In this document: positions 3,322-29,554 of the stretch, piece after piece
Layout: every line of letters begins with the position of its first letter
Numbering within the stretch: the first letter of the stretch is position 1
Source: Bacteroidota bacterium
GTDB taxonomy: Bacteria > Bacteroidota > Bacteroidia > Palsa-948
Assembly (NCBI GenBank): GCA_016213405.1
Contig: JACRAM010000125.1
Location: forward strand, 124,001 to 188,000
DNA: 64,000 nt
Direction: 5' to 3'
Translations under genes and position numbers: made by a program
Notes under the pieces: model-generated
The model's input: only the letters and a program-made list of their open reading frames with translations
What the model was told of the DNA's origin: nothing
The model's database searches: none

Positions 3322-4011
3322 ATGACTAAAAAATTATTGTCTTTCTTTTTTGCCTATTGCCTATTGCCTGTTGCCTATTGCTTTTCTCAGGATTATCCAG
3401 ATGCAGGCTCATGGAATACATTAAATATTGACAAAGCAATAAACGGCAAGCTCACTGCACTGTTTACAGAAGAATGTCGCTTCAAAGAAAATTTTTCTCG
3501 CTTAAATCTTTTTTATACAAATCTTGGTATTGAATATAAGGTCGCAAAAAATTTTAAAGTAGCGTTGATTTACCGTTGGATTGATAAATTCCAGGACGAT
3601 AATTCTTATAGTTTTCGCCACCGGCTCATGCTTGACTTGACTTTCAAACAAAAGTTCGGAAAACTTACAGCGTCTTACCGCAACCGAACTCAAGTGGAAG
3701 ATCGCGATATTTATTCCAGCGATAACGGAAGTGTTCCAGAATGGTATTCAAGAAATAAATTCGGAGCAAAGTATGATATGGGGAAAAGATACATTCCTTT
3801 TGCTTCTGTTGAACTCCGCTACCAGTTTCGTGACCCAAGAAACATTGAAAGTGATAAAACCTGGCACCGCGAACGCTATGTGCTTGGCGCGGAATATAAA
3901 ATCAATAACAAAAATATTTTTAGCGCCTATTACCTGATCCAGCGCGAACACAATGTTCTCAGCCCTCAGAACCTCTATATTGTAGGGCTTGAGTACTCGC
4001 TTTCACTCTGA
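3322..4011 (+). CDS. DUF2490 outer-membrane beta-barrel protein
   Basis: A 229-residue protein with a signal peptide ending near YCFSQ and a mature part made of alternating beta strands ending in aromatic residues (LYIVGLEYSLSL), typical of an outer-membrane barrel. The start WNTLNIDKAINGKLTALFTEEC and the regularly spaced YRW, RHRLMLDL and YRNRTQ strands match DUF2490. It is the last gene of the run that begins at 871. The hydrophobic core of the signal peptide is encoded by four tandem heptanucleotides (3353-3380), giving AYCLLPVAYC; an almost identical peptide starts the unrelated phosphatase gene at 23678. Confidence 0.82.
   Translation: MTKKLLSFFFAYCLLPVAYCFSQDYPDAGSWNTLNIDKAINGKLTALFTEECRFKENFSRLNLFYTNLGIEYKVAKNFKVALIYRWIDKFQDDNSYSFRHRLMLDLTFKQKFGKLTASYRNRTQVEDRDIYSSDNGSVPEWYSRNKFGAKYDMGKRYIPFASVELRYQFRDPRNIESDKTWHRERYVLGAEYKINNKNIFSAYYLIQREHNVLSPQNLYIVGLEYSLSL
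3353..3380 (+). repeat. Heptanucleotide array (4 units) inside a signal peptide
   Basis: Four contiguous 7-mers read CCTATTG, CCTATTG, CCTGTTG, CCTATTG. They encode the hydrophobic core of the DUF2490 signal peptide. This is one of at least nine period-7 arrays in the window. Confidence 0.85.
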
Positions 4012-13898: not shown

Positions 13899-15143
13899 AT
13901 GCTTTTTCTTACTCTCTTCAAAGAAAGTTTTCTCTTCGCCATACAAGCGCTGGTGACGAACAAGCTGAGAAGTTTTCTTTCCCTGCTTGGAATAACTATT
14001 GGAATTTTTGCCATCATTTCTGTTTTCACAATGACGGATTCACTTGAATTCAAACTGCGCGATAGTGTAAAATCGCTTGGCGATAACGTCATCTATATTC
14101 AGAAATGGCCATGGACTTTCGGTCCGGATTATCCCTGGTGGAAATACATGAATCGCCCAGTACCGAACATCAGTGAATTGGATGAAGTTCGGAGAGTGTG
14201 CCTGAAAGGTGAGTCATTTGCTTTCATGGTTTCAGCAAGAGGAACTGCAAAGTATAGAAGCAACAGCGTGGAGAATTCTGATTTGCAATGTGTGTCGCAT
14301 GAATATGATAAGATTCGTTCATTTGAAATCGTGAATGGAAGATATTTTTCCGAAACGGAATCATCAAGCGGGAGAGCCGTTTGCATCATAGGGAATACAA
14401 TCGCAGAGGGTTTATTTGAGAGCGAAGACCCCATCGGTAAAACAATAAAAGTGCGCGATAGCAAATTGGCAGTAATTGGCGTTTTGAAAAAAGAAGGAGA
14501 GAGCATGATAGGAAGCAATGTTGATACTCAAGTTCTCATTCCGATAAATTACGCGCGCAACATTGTTGATTTACGTAGTGATAGATTTGAACCGGTGATT
14601 CTCGTGAAAGCAAAGCAGGGAGTTTCAAATGATGAGTTGATTGATGAACTTACAGGAATCATGCGCGGAATCAGAAAACTGAAACCCATTGCTGAAGATG
14701 ATTTTGCCTTGAATCAAACATCTATGCTCTCTGCGCAAGTCGGAGATTTATTTAATGTAGTTGGAATTGCCGGATGGATCATTGGCGGATTTTCAATTTT
14801 AGTTGGCGGATTCGGAATTGCAAATATTATGTTTGTGTCTGTAAAGGAAAGAACCAACCTTATTGGAATTCAGAAATCTCTTGGTGCGAAAAATTATTTT
14901 ATACTCTTGCAATTTCTTGCTGAAGCGATAATGCTTTCCATCATAGGAGGAATTATCGGACTTCTTTTGATTTACGGAGGAACTTTTATAGTGGAAAGTT
15001 TAATGGAAATGGAAGTGAATCTCACGCAATCAAACATTATTCTTGGTTTAACAATCTCCGCGTTGATTGGAGTTGTCTCGGGGTTCGTGCCTGCCTACAA
15101 CGCTTCGCAACTAGATCCTGTAGAAGCAATACGCACAAATTAG
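13899..15143 (+). CDS. ABC transporter permease (MacB/FtsX family)
   Basis: A 414-residue MacB-like permease. One transmembrane helix lies near the N-terminus (RSFLSLLGITIGIFAIISVF, ~24-43), then a large periplasmic MacB_PCD domain (~45-280), then three helices in the FtsX domain (~285-305, 335-365, 385-405). Motifs NKLRSFLSLLGITIGI and ALRTN-like ending DPVEAIRTN are typical. The partner ATPase is not in this window. These proteins act in efflux or lipoprotein/peptide export driven by an ATPase in trans; the substrate here is unknown. Confidence 0.88.
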   Translation: MLFLTLFKESFLFAIQALVTNKLRSFLSLLGITIGIFAIISVFTMTDSLEFKLRDSVKSLGDNVIYIQKWPWTFGPDYPWWKYMNRPVPNISELDEVRRVCLKGESFAFMVSARGTAKYRSNSVENSDLQCVSHEYDKIRSFEIVNGRYFSETESSSGRAVCIIGNTIAEGLFESEDPIGKTIKVRDSKLAVIGVLKKEGESMIGSNVDTQVLIPINYARNIVDLRSDRFEPVILVKAKQGVSNDELIDELTGIMRGIRKLKPIAEDDFALNQTSMLSAQVGDLFNVVGIAGWIIGGFSILVGGFGIANIMFVSVKERTNLIGIQKSLGAKNYFILLQFLAEAIMLSIIGGIIGLLLIYGGTFIVESLMEMEVNLTQSNIILGLTISALIGVVSGFVPAYNASQLDPVEAIRTN

Positions 15144-15150
15144 CGCAAGA

Positions 15151-15222
15151 ACCAAATAGCAAATATCAAATCACAAATAAATTCCAACACCCAAATACAA
15201 AAATTCAAACAATAAAAAGCAA
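15151..15222. repeat. Left heptad-repeat arm flanking the four-helix-bundle gene
   Basis: Period-7 units such as AAATAGC, AAATATC, AAATCAC, AAATAAA, TTCCAAC run up to the ATG at 15224. It contains CAAATCACAAATAAAT (15167-15182), which recurs inverted at 15617-15632 on the other side of the gene. The two arms are inverted relative to each other over about 60 bp. Confidence 0.8.
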
Positions 15223-15223
15223 A

Positions 15224-15586
15224 ATGTTAAAAGAAGAAAAGAAGCCAGTTTATGATTTAGAAGAAAGAACTTTTCAGTTTGCAAAGCGAGTTAGGCTATA
15301 TGTAAAAAATCTTCCTAAAACAACAGCTAACATTGAAGACGGAAAACAAATAATCAGAGCGTCTGGTTCTGTTGGCGCAAATTATATAGAAGCGAATGAA
15401 GCATTAAGCGACAAAGATTTTCGCATGAGAATTAAAATTTCCAGAAAGGAATCAAAGGAAAGCGCTTATTTCTTGCGATTGATTTATGAAACAAATTCTT
15501 CTGAGTTTGAAAAAGAGGGACGGCTATTACAAGATGAAGCAGTGCAATTAAAAAAGATTTTTTCAACCATTATCAATAAATCTTGA
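15224..15586 (+). CDS. Four-helix-bundle protein (23S rRNA IVS protein / S23 family)
   Basis: A 120-residue all-helical protein of the four-helix-bundle (S23, intervening-sequence protein) family. Conserved features are FAKRVRLYVKNLP (~19-31), QIIRASGSVGANYIEANEA (~43-61), FRMRIKISRKESKESAYFL (~66-84) and the C-terminal EAVQLKKIFSTII. Relatives are found inside intervening sequences of 23S rRNA genes and as stand-alone genes; their molecular role is unsettled. Here the gene is flanked on both sides by inverted, heptad-periodic arms (15151-15222 and 15584-15648), so the transcript could fold into a stem with the gene in the loop. Confidence 0.9.
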   Translation: MLKEEKKPVYDLEERTFQFAKRVRLYVKNLPKTTANIEDGKQIIRASGSVGANYIEANEALSDKDFRMRIKISRKESKESAYFLRLIYETNSSEFEKEGRLLQDEAVQLKKIFSTIINKS

Positions 15587-15648
15587 TTGTTTTGAATTTG
15601 GATTTTCATATTTGGTATTTATTTGTGATTTGTTATTTGTATTTTGGA
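15584..15648. repeat. Right heptad-repeat arm flanking the four-helix-bundle gene
   Basis: Units TTTGAAT, TTGGATT, TTCATAT, TTGGTAT, TTATTTG, TGATTTG, TTATTTG, TATTTTG. It is the inverted counterpart of 15151-15222, with a 16-bp exact match at 15617-15632. It ends about 11 bp before the ATG of the next gene. Confidence 0.8.
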
Positions 15649-15658
15649 ATTTAAACTT

Positions 15659-16000
15659 ATGGAAATAGTAAGAAAACGCCCGATCATTCTCACCATCATC
15701 TGCATCATAGGAATTTTATGGAGTTTGTTGAATTTCATTTTTGTTTTTTCTCCTTTTATAAAGAAAATCTCTGACTGGGCTCCCGCGATTTATGGAATTA
15801 TTGTGGCGATTCAGTTTATTTCTTTCATCGGAATCTGGCACATGAAACGATGGGGAGTGCATCTTTTTATTTCCGCGTTCTTTGCCAAAATAATTTTCTC
15901 TATCCTGATTGACGATGTGAGTTATATGGGAATTGTTCTCTCTGTGATTTTCACAATCTTCTTCCTGGTTTATTACAGGAGGATGGATGAGGAACTGTAA
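15659..16000 (+). CDS. Small polytopic membrane protein of unknown function
   Basis: A 113-residue protein with about four transmembrane segments (PIILTIICIIGILWSLLNFI, ~7-26; APAIYGIIVAIQFISFIGIW; WGVHLFISAFFAKIIFSILI; GIVLSVIFTIFFLVYY). The ATG at 15659 (MEIVRKRP) is preferred over a TTG at 15644 that lies in the repeat arm. It ends directly against the convergent mfd stop codon. No known family is recognised with certainty. Confidence 0.7.
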   Translation: MEIVRKRPIILTIICIIGILWSLLNFIFVFSPFIKKISDWAPAIYGIIVAIQFISFIGIWHMKRWGVHLFISAFFAKIIFSILIDDVSYMGIVLSVIFTIFFLVYYRRMDEEL

Positions 16001-19000
16001 TTAATCTTTCATTCTCTTCATTATCTCCATCGCTCCATCAATATCTTTTATATTCTCAACTTTCAACGTCAGTTTGTTTTCACCCTCATTCATCGTGCAG
16101 GTTTTCGGATTACTCTGCACGAACCGCAAATTTTTTGAGAAGGTTTCGCTTTGATAGTAAGGGGAGTTTTTATTTGAGACAAACCATGCCGTAAGCTTTC
16201 CATTTTTCAAAAAAAGTTTTTCAAAACCCAGTTCAATCGCCAGCCATCGCAGCCGGACAACAATGATGAGTTTTTTTGTCTGCGATGGAATTTCTCCGAA
16301 CCGGTCCTGCAATTGTTTTTCAAAAGCAGTGAGGTCTTCTTCTGTTTTGCTGTTGTCTAACTGCTGATACAATGCAATACGTTCAGCAATGTTCTCAACA
16401 TATTCATCAGGAATCAGAATGGATAAATCAGTATCAATCACACAATCACGTGTGAAGGGGCGAGAGTCGAGAGTCGGGTGTCGGGTGAAGTTTTCCCTCG
16501 TCTCTCGTCCTTCGTCCTTCGTCTCTTGCATTTCTTCTTTCAGTTCCGCCATCGCTTCATCCAAAATCTTTTGGTACATCTCATAGCCGATTTCAGTGAT
16601 GAACCCGCTTTGCTCTGCTCCCAATAGATTTCCCGCTCCGCGAATATCCAAATCTCGCATAGCAACATTAATTCCGCTGCCGAGTTCGGAGAATTCTTCA
16701 ATGGCGCGCAATCTTTTTTTTGCTTCGTTAGTTAACGTGGCGTATGGAGGCGTTAGCAAATAGCAAAAAGCTTTTTTGTTCGAGCGACCCACTCGCCCGC
16801 GTAACTGATACATATCGCTCAACCCGTAATTCTGTGCATCATTAATAATAATCGTGTTCGCATTTGGAATATCCAATCCGGATTCAATAATCGTAGTACA
16901 CACGAGCACATCAAATTCTCCTTCTACAAAATTCATCATTGCTTTTTCAAGCGTCTCGCCTTTCAATTGTCCGTGAGCAACTAGCATTCTCGCTTTCGGA
17001 CAAAGTTTTTGAATGAGTTCAGCATAGCGCCCGATATTTTGGACCCGGTTGTGAACGAAAAATACTTGCCCGCTTCTTTGCAATTCATATTCGATTCCTT
17101 CCTTAATTATTTTTTCATTGAACTGGTGTAGTTCTGTGTGAACAGGATAACGGTTTGGCGGTGGCGTGTTGATGATAGACAAATCCCTCGCACCCATCAT
17201 AGAAAACTGGAGTGTGCGCGGAATAGGAGTTGCAGTGAGCGTGAGTGTATCTACATTTGCTTTTAGAAGTTTTAGTTTATCTTTTGCACCTACTCCGAAT
17301 TTCTGCTCTTCATCCACAATCATTAATCCTAAATCTTTGAACTTTACATCCTTTCCAAGCAAGCGATGTGTGCCGATGATGATATCAGTTTTTCCTTCGG
17401 CAAGTTTTTTCAGAGATTCTTTCTGGTCTTTTGCTGATTTGAAGCGGTTGATGTAATCTATTGTTACAGGTAATTCTTTCATGCGATCGGAAAATGTTTT
17501 GAAATGTTGAAGTGCCAGAATAGTTGTCGGAACAAGAACGGCAGTTTGTTTGCTGTCGCAGGCTGCTTTGAACGAAGCGCGAATGGCAATTTCTGTTTTT
17601 CCAAATCCAACATCTCCGCAAATTAACCTGTCCATAGGAGATTCTTCCTCCATATCCCGTTTCACATCGTTGGTGGATTTTAATTGGTCAGGTGTATCTT
17701 CGTAGATGAAACTCGCTTCAAGTTCATTCTGCAAATAACTATCTGGAGAGAATGCAAAACCTTTCTGTTGTTTTCTCTGCGCGTAAAGTTTGATGAGGTC
17801 GAACGCAATTTCCTTGACTTTCTTTTTTGTTTTACGCTTGAGATTTGTCCATGCATTTGAACCAAGTTTGTCAAGTCGTGGTGCTTCACCTTCCTTCCCT
17901 GTGTGTTTTGAAATCTGGTGAAGCGAGTGAATGCTTATATATAAGGTGTCGTTATCCTTATAAACTAACCGAATCGCTTCCTGTTCTTTTTCGTTCACCA
18001 CAATTTTTTCCAAACCGCCAAATCGCCCGATGCCGTAATCAATATGCGTTACATAATCTCCCGGCTGAAGTGATTTCAGCATTTTTATAGTGAGCACTTC
18101 GCTTTTTTTGAATCCACCGCTTTTTATTTTGTAGCGGTGATACCTGCCAAAAATCTGGTGGTCAGTGTAACAGGAAATTTTTTGATTATTGTCAACAAAT
18201 CCTTCATGGATGGAAGAAATTAACGGAGTGAATTCTAAATTTTTTCCTTCACTGCTTAATGATTCAAAAATTGCATGCAGCCGTTCAGATTGTTTTGCTG
18301 AATCGCAGAAAATAAAATTCTGAAAATCTTTTTCTGAATTCGTTTTCAGGTTTGCTTCAAGCAAATTGAAATTTTTATTGAAGGAAGGTTGAGGGGAGAA
18401 ATTAAAGTTGATATATCCTACACCTTCACCCCCTCCGGAGGAGGACAAATTTCCAAATTCAACTATCGATACTTTTTGAAATTCGTTTTTCAATTCTTCT
18501 GCGCTGAGAAACAAATCAGATTTTTCCGAAAGTGATTTTAATCGTTCGTCTATTATATTCAGAGATTGGGGTGCATTATCAATCCAGATACATAAATCAT
18601 TTTTGTTTTCAAGAATGAAATCAATAATGGAAGTTGATTTGCCTTCAGACATTTTTTCTTGTATGTTCGGAAGAATGGACGCACAGTCAAAGTGCTGAAG
18701 CGAAAGCTGGCTCACTGTATCGAATGTTCGGATGGATTCAACTTCATCACCTGAAAGCTCGATTCGGAAGGGCGCATTGTTTGAGAAAGAAAAAATATCC
18801 ACAATTCCACCTCGGACAGAGAACTGCCCAGGTTCCACTACATAATCACATTGTTCAAAACCATATTCATTTAAAATGTCCGTGAGAAACGATAGAGAAA
18901 TCTTTTCCCCTTTAGTGATGTTTATTGAATTTTTCTCAAGATGCTCTTTTGAAATTACTTTTTCGGCTATTGCATCCGAATAAGAAACAATAATTAATAA

Positions 19001-19351
19001 TTCATTTGAACGAAGTGCATTCAGAACTTCTGCCCTCAATTGAATGGATGAAGTATCTTGATCTTCAATTGTATATGGTTTTTTGAAAGAAGAAGGAAAA
19101 AATAAAGCTTTAGAGCCAAGCGTTTCTAAGTCATTCAGGATATAGGCGGATTCTTCTTTGTCCTGAAGGATTACAAGATGAACTCTTGATTTTTTTTCAG
19201 AAACAGCACGAATGATAAATGAAAGTGAAGAACCTGCAAGCCCTTTGATTGAAACAGATTTTTTTTCTTCTAAAAGTTTCGCAATAGATAATACTCTCTC
19301 ATCTCCGAAATAAATTTTCAGAAGAGAAGAAAGATTTAATGCAGATTTCAC
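16001..19351 (-). CDS. mfd: Transcription-repair coupling factor Mfd
   Basis: A 1116-residue Mfd, a translocase that removes stalled RNA polymerase and recruits nucleotide-excision repair. It has a UvrB-like N-terminal region, a CarD-type RNA-polymerase-interacting domain (LQPGDYVTHIDYGIGRFGG, ~428-446), and superfamily 2 motor motifs: Walker A GDVGFGKTEIA (~577), DEEQ in MIVDEEQKFG (~679), TLTATPIPRTL (~703), RGRVGRS (~850). Two unusual stretches are DNA-repeat derived. A palindromic insert (18421-18447) gives LSSSGGGEGVG near 303. A heptad array (16455-16530) gives a charged linker ETKDEGRETRENF ... RPFTRD near 940-966. Both lie between domains. Confidence 0.95.
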   Translation of the reverse strand: MKSALNLSSLLKIYFGDERVLSIAKLLEEKKSVSIKGLAGSSLSFIIRAVSEKKSRVHLVILQDKEESAYILNDLETLGSKALFFPSSFKKPYTIEDQDTSSIQLRAEVLNALRSNELLIIVSYSDAIAEKVISKEHLEKNSINITKGEKISLSFLTDILNEYGFEQCDYVVEPGQFSVRGGIVDIFSFSNNAPFRIELSGDEVESIRTFDTVSQLSLQHFDCASILPNIQEKMSEGKSTSIIDFILENKNDLCIWIDNAPQSLNIIDERLKSLSEKSDLFLSAEELKNEFQKVSIVEFGNLSSSGGGEGVGYINFNFSPQPSFNKNFNLLEANLKTNSEKDFQNFIFCDSAKQSERLHAIFESLSSEGKNLEFTPLISSIHEGFVDNNQKISCYTDHQIFGRYHRYKIKSGGFKKSEVLTIKMLKSLQPGDYVTHIDYGIGRFGGLEKIVVNEKEQEAIRLVYKDNDTLYISIHSLHQISKHTGKEGEAPRLDKLGSNAWTNLKRKTKKKVKEIAFDLIKLYAQRKQQKGFAFSPDSYLQNELEASFIYEDTPDQLKSTNDVKRDMEEESPMDRLICGDVGFGKTEIAIRASFKAACDSKQTAVLVPTTILALQHFKTFSDRMKELPVTIDYINRFKSAKDQKESLKKLAEGKTDIIIGTHRLLGKDVKFKDLGLMIVDEEQKFGVGAKDKLKLLKANVDTLTLTATPIPRTLQFSMMGARDLSIINTPPPNRYPVHTELHQFNEKIIKEGIEYELQRSGQVFFVHNRVQNIGRYAELIQKLCPKARMLVAHGQLKGETLEKAMMNFVEGEFDVLVCTTIIESGLDIPNANTIIINDAQNYGLSDMYQLRGRVGRSNKKAFCYLLTPPYATLTNEAKKRLRAIEEFSELGSGINVAMRDLDIRGAGNLLGAEQSGFITEIGYEMYQKILDEAMAELKEEMQETKDEGRETRENFTRHPTLDSRPFTRDCVIDTDLSILIPDEYVENIAERIALYQQLDNSKTEEDLTAFEKQLQDRFGEIPSQTKKLIIVVRLRWLAIELGFEKLFLKNGKLTAWFVSNKNSPYYQSETFSKNLRFVQSNPKTCTMNEGENKLTLKVENIKDIDGAMEIMKRMKD
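16455..16530 (-). repeat. Heptanucleotide array inside mfd
   Basis: On the coding strand: GAGACGA, AGGACGA, AGGACGA, GAGACGA, GGGAAAA, CTTCACC, CGACACC, CGACTCT, CGACTCT. It encodes a charged linker of about 25 residues before the Mfd C-terminal domain. Confidence 0.85.
18421..18447 (-). repeat. GC-rich palindromic element inside mfd
   Basis: On the coding strand TTGTCCTCCTCCGGAGGGGG followed by TGAAGGTGTAGGA, closely matching the copy at 6341-6373. It is in frame and encodes LSSSGGGEGVG. A related half-copy, CTCCCCTCAACCTTCC on the coding strand, lies about 25 bp further on (around 18380-18400). Confidence 0.75.
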
Positions 19352-27148: not shown

Positions 27149-29554
27149 TTACTTCTTCCCGATTATCTCAAACTTCTGAGAAATGGTTTCGCCAAATTCA
27201 TCTACGAGCGTGAGGGTGTGCTGCCCTGCTTCGGGAGAAAGTCCCATCTGGTGAATTCCTTTTGTACTTCCTATATAATTATCATCCAGGTGCCAGTAAA
27301 TAGTTGTTTCGGGTTTGCGGTGCGCTACGCGGAAAACAGTTTTGCCTGTGCTTTCATCCAGTTCAACGGGAACAAAAATTTTGCTCTCCTGTTTCGGATA
27401 CAATAGTTCCATGGAAGCTACGCTGGTTGTGTTGCAATCTTTTCTGAACGATGGAAGTTCGCTGTAGGTTGGATTTTTTGATTTGTAATACCACTCCATC
27501 GCAGGCGGCAGCACAAACCATGATTTATGAATGATGCTTGAAACATTTTCGCAATCGCTGTTCACGCGCCATCTTCCTGTAGCATCCAGATGAATGAGGC
27601 GGTGATACGGACAAGGCGCGGTTTTCAATCCTGCCGCCTGCACCCATTGTTTTTCTTTGTGCTCGCAAATGGGCAGCGCGCGGTAGCCGCTTTCTTTGCA
27701 CACTTCTATTTCTCTCATTTCATCCTGCGGCATCTTGAACCAGCCCCAACCCTCTGAAGGTGAGGGGAGCGCTCCGAAGATTTCAAAAAGAATCGGAGCT
27801 GCAGTGCCGATGCCTGTGAGGTTGGGTCTTCCTTCTCCGTTGGCGTTGCCCACCCAAACACCTACTACATATTTCGGTGTCACGCCAATCGCCCATCCGT
27901 CTCGGTAGCCAAAACTTGTTCCGGTCTTCCACGCAATCTTTGACGAAGAAGAAAACATCTGCCAGCTTGCGTCAATATCGGGTCGGTTCACTTCTGCCAT
28001 GGCTTCGAAGGTTAAATAAATGGAGGCAGGATCGAGAGAAATGGTTGATGGTTGATGGTTGATGGTTGATGGAGAAGAAAAATAATTGAGTGGATATAAT
28101 TCTTGAGAAAAATTTTCTCCGCTATTTGCATGATTCAACGTGCGCGCCATGCTTGCATAAATTCCACAGAGATCCCAGAGTGTTGCTTCGGCTCCTCCGA
28201 GAATGAGTGTGAGTCCGTAATGGTCGGCAGAATTATTCAGCGTGGTGATGCCGAGTTTTTTGAGGAAGTAATGAAACCTGTCCACTCCATATTGCTGAAG
28301 CATTTTCACGCAGGGAACATTAAGCGAACGTGAAAGCGCACGCCTGGCGGGAACCGCGCCATCATAAGTGAGATAAAAATTCTGCGGAGAGAAGTCTCCT
28401 ATCTGCATGGGAATATCAGGCACAAGAGTATTCGGAAGGATTTCTCCATCACTGAGCATGGCTGAAAATAAAAATGGCTTCATGATGCTGCCGGTTGAAC
28501 GAGGTGAAGTGATGATGTCAACAGAGTTGCCGTGAAGGTCTTTGCCCTCATTCCAACCATCTCCCACAGAAGAGGGCGTTGTATTTCCAACATACGCCAC
28601 CACATTTCCTATCTCCACATCGGCAACAATTGCTGCTGCATTGAAGATTTGATTTCCCTGAAGTTTCAGAGAATGTTTCTCTACAATGTTTTTTATCCGT
28701 TCCTGGAGATTTGCATCCAGCGTGGATAAAACAGTTTGTCCGTTCATTCCTTCTTTGGAAGCGCGGTCGAGCAAATGAGACGACAACTGCGGAAGCGGAA
28801 AAGGTTTTTCGGGAAGCGGTTCGGATTGAGCAAGCACGCAGCTAAGCGAATCCATTTCTCCTGATTTCCATAGGGAAATTAAAAGACGGTTTCTTTTTTC
28901 CAGCAGCCGCTTATGATTTTTTCCGGGATAGATTAGCGAGGGAGCGTTGGGAAGAACTGCCAACGTGGCAGCTTCAGACCAGGAAAGTTCTGCGGGCTTT
29001 CTTCCGAAATATCTCCACGAAGCGGCATCTAATCCAACTACATTTCCTCCGAACGGTGCGTTAGAAGAATACAAAGCAAGAATTTCTTTTTTGGAATAGA
29101 AAATTTCTGTACGTGTGGCAAAAATTATTTCTATTATTTTTTCAAGAACTGTTCTCCCCTGCCCTTTCCTTGAAAGGCGAATCACCTGCATGGTGAGCGT
29201 ACTGCCTCCGCTTTTTACTTTTCCGGATTTAATATTCAGATACAACGCACGAAACATGGAGACAGGATTAAATCCTGGATGGCTGAAAAAATATTTGTCT
29301 TCAAACTCCGTAATTGCTTTCGCAAACTTCTCCGGAACTTTTTCGTCATAGGGAAAACGCCACTGTCCGTCATCGGCAATCTTGGCTCCGAGCAGAATTC
29401 CGGTTTTATCTTCCAGAACGGTGGAGGTCGGGTCTTTGAAAAATTTTAAAGGAAGGCAAAAACAATACCAAACGAACAAAATAAAAAAAAGCAACAGGAA
29501 AACTTTTTTCTTTTTGCCGAGGTTAAGAAATTTATTTTTCAGAGAAGAGAACAC
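27149..29554 (-). CDS. pbpC: Penicillin-binding protein 1C
   Basis: An 801-residue class A PBP. It has an N-terminal anchor (VFLLLFFILFVWYCFCLPL, ~18-36), a GT51 glycosyltransferase domain (EDKYFFSHPGFNPVSMFRA ~90; GGSTLTMQVIRL ~117), a transpeptidase domain with SxxK in STGSIMK (~355), SxN in SLNVPC (~408) and KTG in WKTGTSFGYRDGW (~540), and a C-terminal BiPBP_C-like domain (~715-801). Two repeat-derived peptides occur: STINHQPSTINHQPSTI (~494-510, heptads at 28044-28071) and LPSPSEGWGWF (~596-606, palindrome 27741-27772). It lies 87 bp downstream of a thioester alpha-2-macroglobulin, the pairing known from E. coli YfhM-PbpC. Confidence 0.93.
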   Translation of the reverse strand: MFSSLKNKFLNLGKKKKVFLLLFFILFVWYCFCLPLKFFKDPTSTVLEDKTGILLGAKIADDGQWRFPYDEKVPEKFAKAITEFEDKYFFSHPGFNPVSMFRALYLNIKSGKVKSGGSTLTMQVIRLSRKGQGRTVLEKIIEIIFATRTEIFYSKKEILALYSSNAPFGGNVVGLDAASWRYFGRKPAELSWSEAATLAVLPNAPSLIYPGKNHKRLLEKRNRLLISLWKSGEMDSLSCVLAQSEPLPEKPFPLPQLSSHLLDRASKEGMNGQTVLSTLDANLQERIKNIVEKHSLKLQGNQIFNAAAIVADVEIGNVVAYVGNTTPSSVGDGWNEGKDLHGNSVDIITSPRSTGSIMKPFLFSAMLSDGEILPNTLVPDIPMQIGDFSPQNFYLTYDGAVPARRALSRSLNVPCVKMLQQYGVDRFHYFLKKLGITTLNNSADHYGLTLILGGAEATLWDLCGIYASMARTLNHANSGENFSQELYPLNYFSSPSTINHQPSTISLDPASIYLTFEAMAEVNRPDIDASWQMFSSSSKIAWKTGTSFGYRDGWAIGVTPKYVVGVWVGNANGEGRPNLTGIGTAAPILFEIFGALPSPSEGWGWFKMPQDEMREIEVCKESGYRALPICEHKEKQWVQAAGLKTAPCPYHRLIHLDATGRWRVNSDCENVSSIIHKSWFVLPPAMEWYYKSKNPTYSELPSFRKDCNTTSVASMELLYPKQESKIFVPVELDESTGKTVFRVAHRKPETTIYWHLDDNYIGSTKGIHQMGLSPEAGQHTLTLVDEFGETISQKFEIIGKK
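27741..27772 (-). repeat. GC-rich palindromic element inside pbpC
   Basis: On the coding strand GCTCCCCTCACCTTCAGAGG followed by GTTGGGGCTGG. C-run and G-run arms surround a short centre. It is in frame and encodes LPSPSEGWGWF between the transpeptidase and C-terminal domains. Confidence 0.7.
28044..28071 (-). repeat. Four perfect heptanucleotides inside pbpC
   Basis: GTTGATG repeated four times without a mismatch on the plus strand. On the coding strand this gives the repeated peptide STINHQP. Perfect identity suggests a recent expansion. Confidence 0.9.

Follow-up and report, generated by a model that had tools for sequence, protein, structure and literature searches.

Inverted heptad arms around an S23p gene in an operon spacer of a Bacteroidota genome: probably one copy of an apparently undescribed, IVS-like mobile family

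Intervening sequences (IVSs) encoding an S23p protein are found in the 23S rRNA genes of Leptospira and Coxiella. The S23p/four-helix-bundle genes are widespread in bacterial genomes and, to our knowledge, no role has been assigned to this family through three decades. Heptameric repeats have been on record for decades, with separate observations in cyanobacteria, Xanthomonas, Beggiatoaceae and Bacteroidota; they were reported repeatedly and we know of no cause that was given for them. The IVS of Coxiella displays GACAGAT heptamers in its 5' arm and is cut out by RNase III at the first heptamer (PMC4990558). According to the searched text of two papers, the described heptamers include GGGAATC of Xanthomonas and GGGGA(C/T)T of Nostoc (PMC4692102), as well as TAACTGA of Beggiatoaceae (PMC4679880), and MacGregor (2015, PMC4679880) suggested that heptamers located immediately 5' of start codons act in translational control. 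This searched text contains no mention of S23p or four-helix-bundle genes. No description of S23p elements living in spacers outside rRNA was found in the open-access literature searched.

The window analysed here, i.e. the whole stretch of 64,000 nucleotides, contains such an element at about positions 15144-15658 (locus L018; Table 1). It is not located in rRNA but in the spacer between the genes of an ABC permease and of a small membrane protein. The left arm starts about 8 nt past the stop codon of the upstream gene and the right arm ends about 8 nt ahead of the ATG of the next gene; this ATG, at position 15659, is the start common to the window genome and its congeners. A first-pass annotation, made from the letters of the window, had described inverted arms with an exact core of 16 bp around a four-helix-bundle gene. 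The repeat search confirms this description, as positions 15152-15216 are paired with positions 15583-15647 over 65 nt without gap, with 74% complementarity and a distance of 366 nt. The arms, composed of CAAATAT and CAAATCA words, are heptad-like and less regular than a perfect array. The gapped inverted-arm score of L018 is 58; the 708 other ORFs scored, from 852 kb of this genome, all stay below that value (median 17 and 99th percentile 26, the 99th percentile being 45 for the ORFs of 90-166 aa). The search of positions 14900-15900 against Rfam gave no match.

Table 1. Features of the element and of its borders (positions in the window).
Feature	Positions	Strand	Basis
Left arm, degenerate heptads (CAAATAT CAAATCA CAAAT...)	15151..15216	+	repeat search, sequence reading
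Left-arm 16-nt exact core, CAAATCACAAATAAAT	15167..15182	+	
Four-helix-bundle gene (S23p/IVP, PF05635, TIGR02436), 120 aa	15224..15586	+	profile searches
Right arm, left arm inverted	15583..15650	-	repeat search, sequence reading
Right-arm 16-nt exact core, complementary to left core	15617..15632	-	
Upstream host gene, ABC-type permease (MacB-like by sequence reading), left insertion border	13899..15143	+	
Downstream host gene, small membrane protein, right insertion border	15659..16000	+	

In profile searches, the window protein matches PF05635 (23S_rRNA_IVP) with 52.6 bits (cut-off 33.8) and TIGR02436 with 72.5 bits (cut-off 24). Its AlphaFold2 model displays four helices (mean pLDDT 94), and the best solved folds detected by Foldseek are 2RLD and 2GSC, followed by the DGR protein Avd. 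The structure 2GSC comprises five four-helix bundles per assembly (Lin et al. 2006, as cited in PMC10053308). The protein of the element is under purifying selection: between the L018 gene and its orthologue in G004 (G001 to G006 are congeners of the window genome, G000), pN is 0.15 and pS 0.76, and between the paralogues L021 and L022 of the window genome dN is 0.10 and dS 1.05 (dN/dS about 0.10). The DGR accessory protein Avd (4DWL, 8UB7) has a fold related to that of the window protein. No PF00078 match was detected in the window genome (95% complete), no DGR template or variable repeats were seen, and reverse transcriptases show no correlation with PF05635 over 60 genomes; a dependence on reverse transcriptase was consequently rejected.

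The anatomy of the element is an AG-type heptad arm, a four-helix-bundle gene and the inverted arm, mostly in sense orientation between a stop codon and the next ATG. As in the 23S rRNA IVSs, a gene of the same protein family is included in the loop of complementary arms, the 5' arm contains heptamers (in Coxiella, PMC4990558) and presence is patchy, which agrees with the first-pass proposal of a stand-alone relative of S23p IVSs. Contrary to these IVSs, the spacer elements sit in operons, occur in many copies per genome, each with its own word, have gene-less and solo-arm forms and carry no wobble signature. They resemble the REPIN/RAYT system (PMC3116915) by short inverted doublets, by gene-less copies dispersed across intergenic space and by an armed parent gene, but this parent gene belongs to PF05635 and is no RAYT, the element has no Y1 transposase and the heptad arms vary by locus. 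With the heptamer repeats of cyanobacteria (STRRs), Xanthomonas, Nostoc and Beggiatoaceae they share tandem 7-nt units in intergenic spacers near start codons, some of them in inverted pairs (Xanthomonas), with the difference that the arrays are here the arms of S23p elements. Inverted ends and empty sites are shared with MITEs and IS elements, whereas fixed end sequences, visible target-site duplications and a transposase are not. Since the anatomy is IVS-like while the location in rRNA and the mismatch pattern expected for a selected RNA stem are missing, the element was classed as a variant of the IVS kind. It is apparently an undescribed and widespread mobile element related to the rRNA IVSs, with IVS-like anatomy and REPIN-like dispersal. 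We consider it probable that L018 is one copy of an IVS-type (S23p) mobile family inhabiting operon spacers, with arms paired at the DNA level and a ring protein on the heptads.

The window genome comprises 23 PF05635 genes, nearly all with arms; at L013 the arms are not visible. Arm pairing is above the 95th percentile of cross-locus pairing in 21 of the 23 loci, and the arm score is at least 26 in 18 of them, against 1.2% of the ORFs outside 90-166 aa and 10% of those within this range. The arm words are for instance TTACAGG (L004), GGCAGTA (L005), TTGGAAT (L015), CAAATAT (L018), GGATTAA (L021 and L022) and TTCAATA (L023). PF05635 is present in 50 of 60 related genomes, with a maximum of 16 copies, and 79% of 29 loci from relatives are above the 95th percentile of cross-locus pairing. 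For 80 named loci, gathered with an alignment of eight sequences and hence biased to one subfamily, the own-arm median is 32.5 against 18 with mismatched partners; these loci include Algoriphagus, Pedobacter, Hymenobacter, Lutibacter, Ignavibacteriae and a few proteobacterial MAGs. Inverted arms are present at 11 of 12 plasmid loci, most of which are cyanobacterial (words GGGAGTA, AAAAGGG, GGGTGTA, GGGAACA and ACAGGTG, and GGGCAGGA for the Gemmatirosa plasmid locus), and L270 contains two heptad arrays in direct orientation.

Altogether, the layout is common to most of 141 loci from Bacteroidota, Cyanobacteria, Gemmatimonadota and others. In 77% of these loci at least one side, and in 48% both sides, show a 7-nt periodicity above the 99th percentile of neighbouring sequence. 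The expectation that inverted arms always surround the homologues holds for most of the loci, in several phyla, and fails for L013, L040 and L137, whose PF05635 genes have no clear arms and count against a mobile element. Chance adjacency of two unrelated heptad arrays, the outcome named beforehand as fatal to the idea, is contradicted by the presence of arms around most homologues and by the cross-locus and ORF controls. The cyanobacterial plasmid elements L270, L273 and L278 lie within CRISPR operons (cas6-cas4, cas10-cmr3).

The left arms show a self-identity of 0.64 at lag 7 and 0.63 at lag 14, against about 0.26 at most other lags. They are rich in AG (350 against 57 for CT), the AG excess being observed in 85 of 93 loci, whereas this ratio is comprised between 1.1 and 1.5 in genes. 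Phase alignment reveals the shared word A-G-[T/A]-A-N-T-N with 2.31 bits (maximum of 1.71 in 40 permutations); the Coxiella heptamer GACAGAT, read as AGATGAC, has the same beginning. The median score of own-arm pairs is 33 against 16 for cross-locus pairs, and the own partner is within the top 5% in 70% of cases. The word varies among loci, even between orthologues of one operon slot, and agrees between left and right within a locus. In the thiolase slot (27 loci), own pairs score 31 against 17 for the others despite words varying by species; for ten loci ahead of a dihydrolipoyl-dehydrogenase-like gene, where the word is conserved, the values are 37 and 33. In L162, L166, L175 and L180 one arm repeats the other exactly in inverted orientation, down to the succession of the variant heptads. 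As words differ across loci and yet match between the two arms of one locus, the arms are rewritten over time, together.

The comparison of the same sites in congeners supports the mobility that the first-pass annotation had suggested, and the empty sites which it proposed to look for were found at L018, L007, L004 and L022. The L018 site is empty in G001 and G006, where the stop codon and the ATG are separated by 1-5 nt; in G003, 20 nt similar to the right arm are left, and in G004 the gene is present with longer arms. The L007 site, which contains a full element in the window genome, is empty in G001, G005 and G006, includes gene-less heptad hairpins in G002 and G004 and the right arm alone in G003. 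The L004 site is empty in G001. The L022 element is absent from its site in all six congeners examined and its paralogue L021, with the same word, is found at a different place in the genome, which suggests that L022 is a recent gain. At the L022 site, the spacer of G005 (L246) and G003 (L255) is occupied by a different hairpin, with CCCTAAAGGG arms. Gene-less hairpins with arms of the L018 family are also found, in G004 and G006 at dozens of places and in the window genome ahead of purB-like and rpe-like genes. One of those in the window genome (L260, G000:C110:30917-31067) is included in outer GGTATAG/CCCTATA arms directly ahead of the purB-like gene. Judged from these empty, gene-less and single-arm sites, the element family behaves as a mobile and decaying one. 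The empty-site junctions that were read display no target-site duplication, and the element encodes no transposase or integrase, which counts against a mobile element.

The following mechanism may be proposed. The inverted heptad arms would be recognised and kept alike at the DNA level, by heptad slippage and arm-to-arm copying. The protein would bind the arms as a pentameric ring, by analogy with the solved relatives, probably with one heptad per protomer; five heptads correspond to 35 nt, near the median aligned arm of 31 nt. Mobility may proceed through host replication and repair or through a trans-acting enzyme. Sense placement in operon spacers would render the element nearly harmless and readable from the host transcript, and the gene-less hairpins and solo heptad arrays would represent non-autonomous or decay forms.

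The first alternative is an IVS acting at the RNA level: the arms would pair in the mRNA and RNase III would cut the stem, freeing the four-helix-bundle message and separating the flanking cistrons as in 23S rRNA. The excision of the Coxiella IVS at its first heptamer (PMC4990558) offers a precedent, and in the predicted fold of the sense RNA the arms enclose the gene (-106.5 kcal/mol, z -2.98). The strong sense bias within operons also favours it: in 126 loci (window genome, relatives and named set) the gene is in the direction of both neighbours in 109 cases, opposed to both in three and mixed in 14 (109 against 3, p 9e-29; background co-direction of neighbours 73%). Against it stand the plasmid copies L268, L269 and L277, antisense to both neighbours, and the arm mismatches. 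Selection for an RNA stem would favour G.U over A.C, but no G.U excess was detected (185 G.U against 230 A.C in 5442 columns from 119 related loci). These counts speak against selection for an RNA stem; they are evidence, not proof, that the pairing seems to be maintained at the DNA level. The stem around the gene proposed by the first-pass annotation is reproduced by the predicted fold, but the data do not support the view that the arms serve to form it, and we regard the RNA-level explanation as possible but doubtful. The antisense copy L268 (Nostoc edaphicum) is inserted between the genes of both ribonucleotide-reductase subunits.

Another explanation, which we hold to be unlikely, is a domesticated regulator: in a TRAP-like manner, the ring protein would attach to the purine-rich heptad arm on its own mRNA and control the downstream gene, and the conserved position ahead of thiolase, fadB, lpd and methylmalonyl-CoA mutase would reflect a host function. 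The purifying selection on the protein, the strand asymmetry of the AG heptads and the proposal of MacGregor (2015, PMC4679880) for heptamers right before start codons are in line with it, as are 62 loci in four slots of CoA metabolism (gene names by sequence reading), although these counts are inflated by the choice of close L002 relatives. However, the family also precedes unrelated genes (gyrA-, suf- and cas-type genes, plasmid genes), the right arm is usually there too, and congeners have empty sites. For the mobile family, in turn, long persistence in metabolic slots is a point against, since it could indicate a host function instead of selfishness.

The DNA element might also be moved in trans by Y1 transposases of the IS200/RAYT type, as REPINs are, with the four-helix-bundle protein as accessory or passenger. 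Gene-less inverted doublets are similar to REPINs (PMC3116915), and the counts of Y1 and PF05635 are correlated over 60 genomes (Spearman 0.51, uncorrected for kinship and genome size). Nevertheless, G015 contains 12 PF05635 genes with no Y1 match, the inspected Y1 genes have no heptad arms, and the arm words are locus-specific whereas REP ends are fixed. A dependence on Y1 was thus rejected in spite of the correlation, and we find this explanation quite improbable.

Heptads are abundant in the window genome at large: 852 kb include 71 arrays of period 7, compared with 0-6 for the periods 4-6 and 8-13. Most of them are solitary and some form hairpins. That ordinary heptanucleotide microsatellites arose by slippage and flank the gene by chance is hardly credible, even with such numbers and with most arrays distant from PF05635 genes, since the left and right arms match in inverted orientation within the locus in most loci of several phyla, exactly so in four of them, and since the L018 score was reached by no control ORF.

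Turning back to the mobile family in operon spacers, no array was found in 468 kb from related genomes without PF05635, against six in 480 kb from genomes with at least five copies. A 23-mer heptad pattern and its reversed control (also a heptad), taken jointly, were found in 22 of 50 genomes with PF05635 and in none of 10 without (p 0.0095, uncorrected for kinship). A tie between heptads and the presence of PF05635 across genomes is suggestive from these counts. Three observations count against a mobile element: most arrays of the window genome are neither beside a PF05635 gene nor in a hairpin, heptad abundance tracks the PF05635 count loosely (G045 has one gene and 15 matches), and several genomes with at least five PF05635 genes have no array in the sampled sequence.

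A second gene class with the layout of the PF05635 elements is represented in the window genome by 11 genes of GxxExxY/TIGR04256 putative nucleases (L282-L292), most of them between inverted arms. Their words are looser, of about 8-10 nt (ACGCAGAGAACACAGAG, CGAATACGAAT and ACAGATAACAGAT), with an autocorrelation peak at 9.

More speculatively, the heptamers of Cyanobacteria, Xanthomonas, Beggiatoaceae and Bacteroidota could be footprints of one ancient mobile system, in which S23p rings would attach to 7-nt words, with one heptad for each protomer, would spread these words and would move hairpins without a canonical transposase; the rRNA IVSs would then be a special case, and the GxxExxY genes with arms of about 9 nt a second, parallel system. 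We advance this only tentatively. A link between S23p proteins and heptamers would offer a testable explanation for both and possibly a new spreading route for a tiny element. The word of each locus, matched between arms yet rewritten between species, constitutes a natural experiment on the upkeep of inverted repeats.

Further heptads were detected at other places. In a 508-kb record of Xanthomonas sacchari containing no PF05635, a gene-less inverted pair of GGGAATC is localized between edd and pgl (L280). In the window, a heptad hairpin at positions 16456-16524 lies within an mfd-like coding sequence (16001-19351, minus strand) and is read in frame. Near-perfect arrays of TTGCCTA (positions 3346-3385, in a signal-peptide-like start) and of ATGGTTG (positions 28036-28077) are also apparently within coding sequence.
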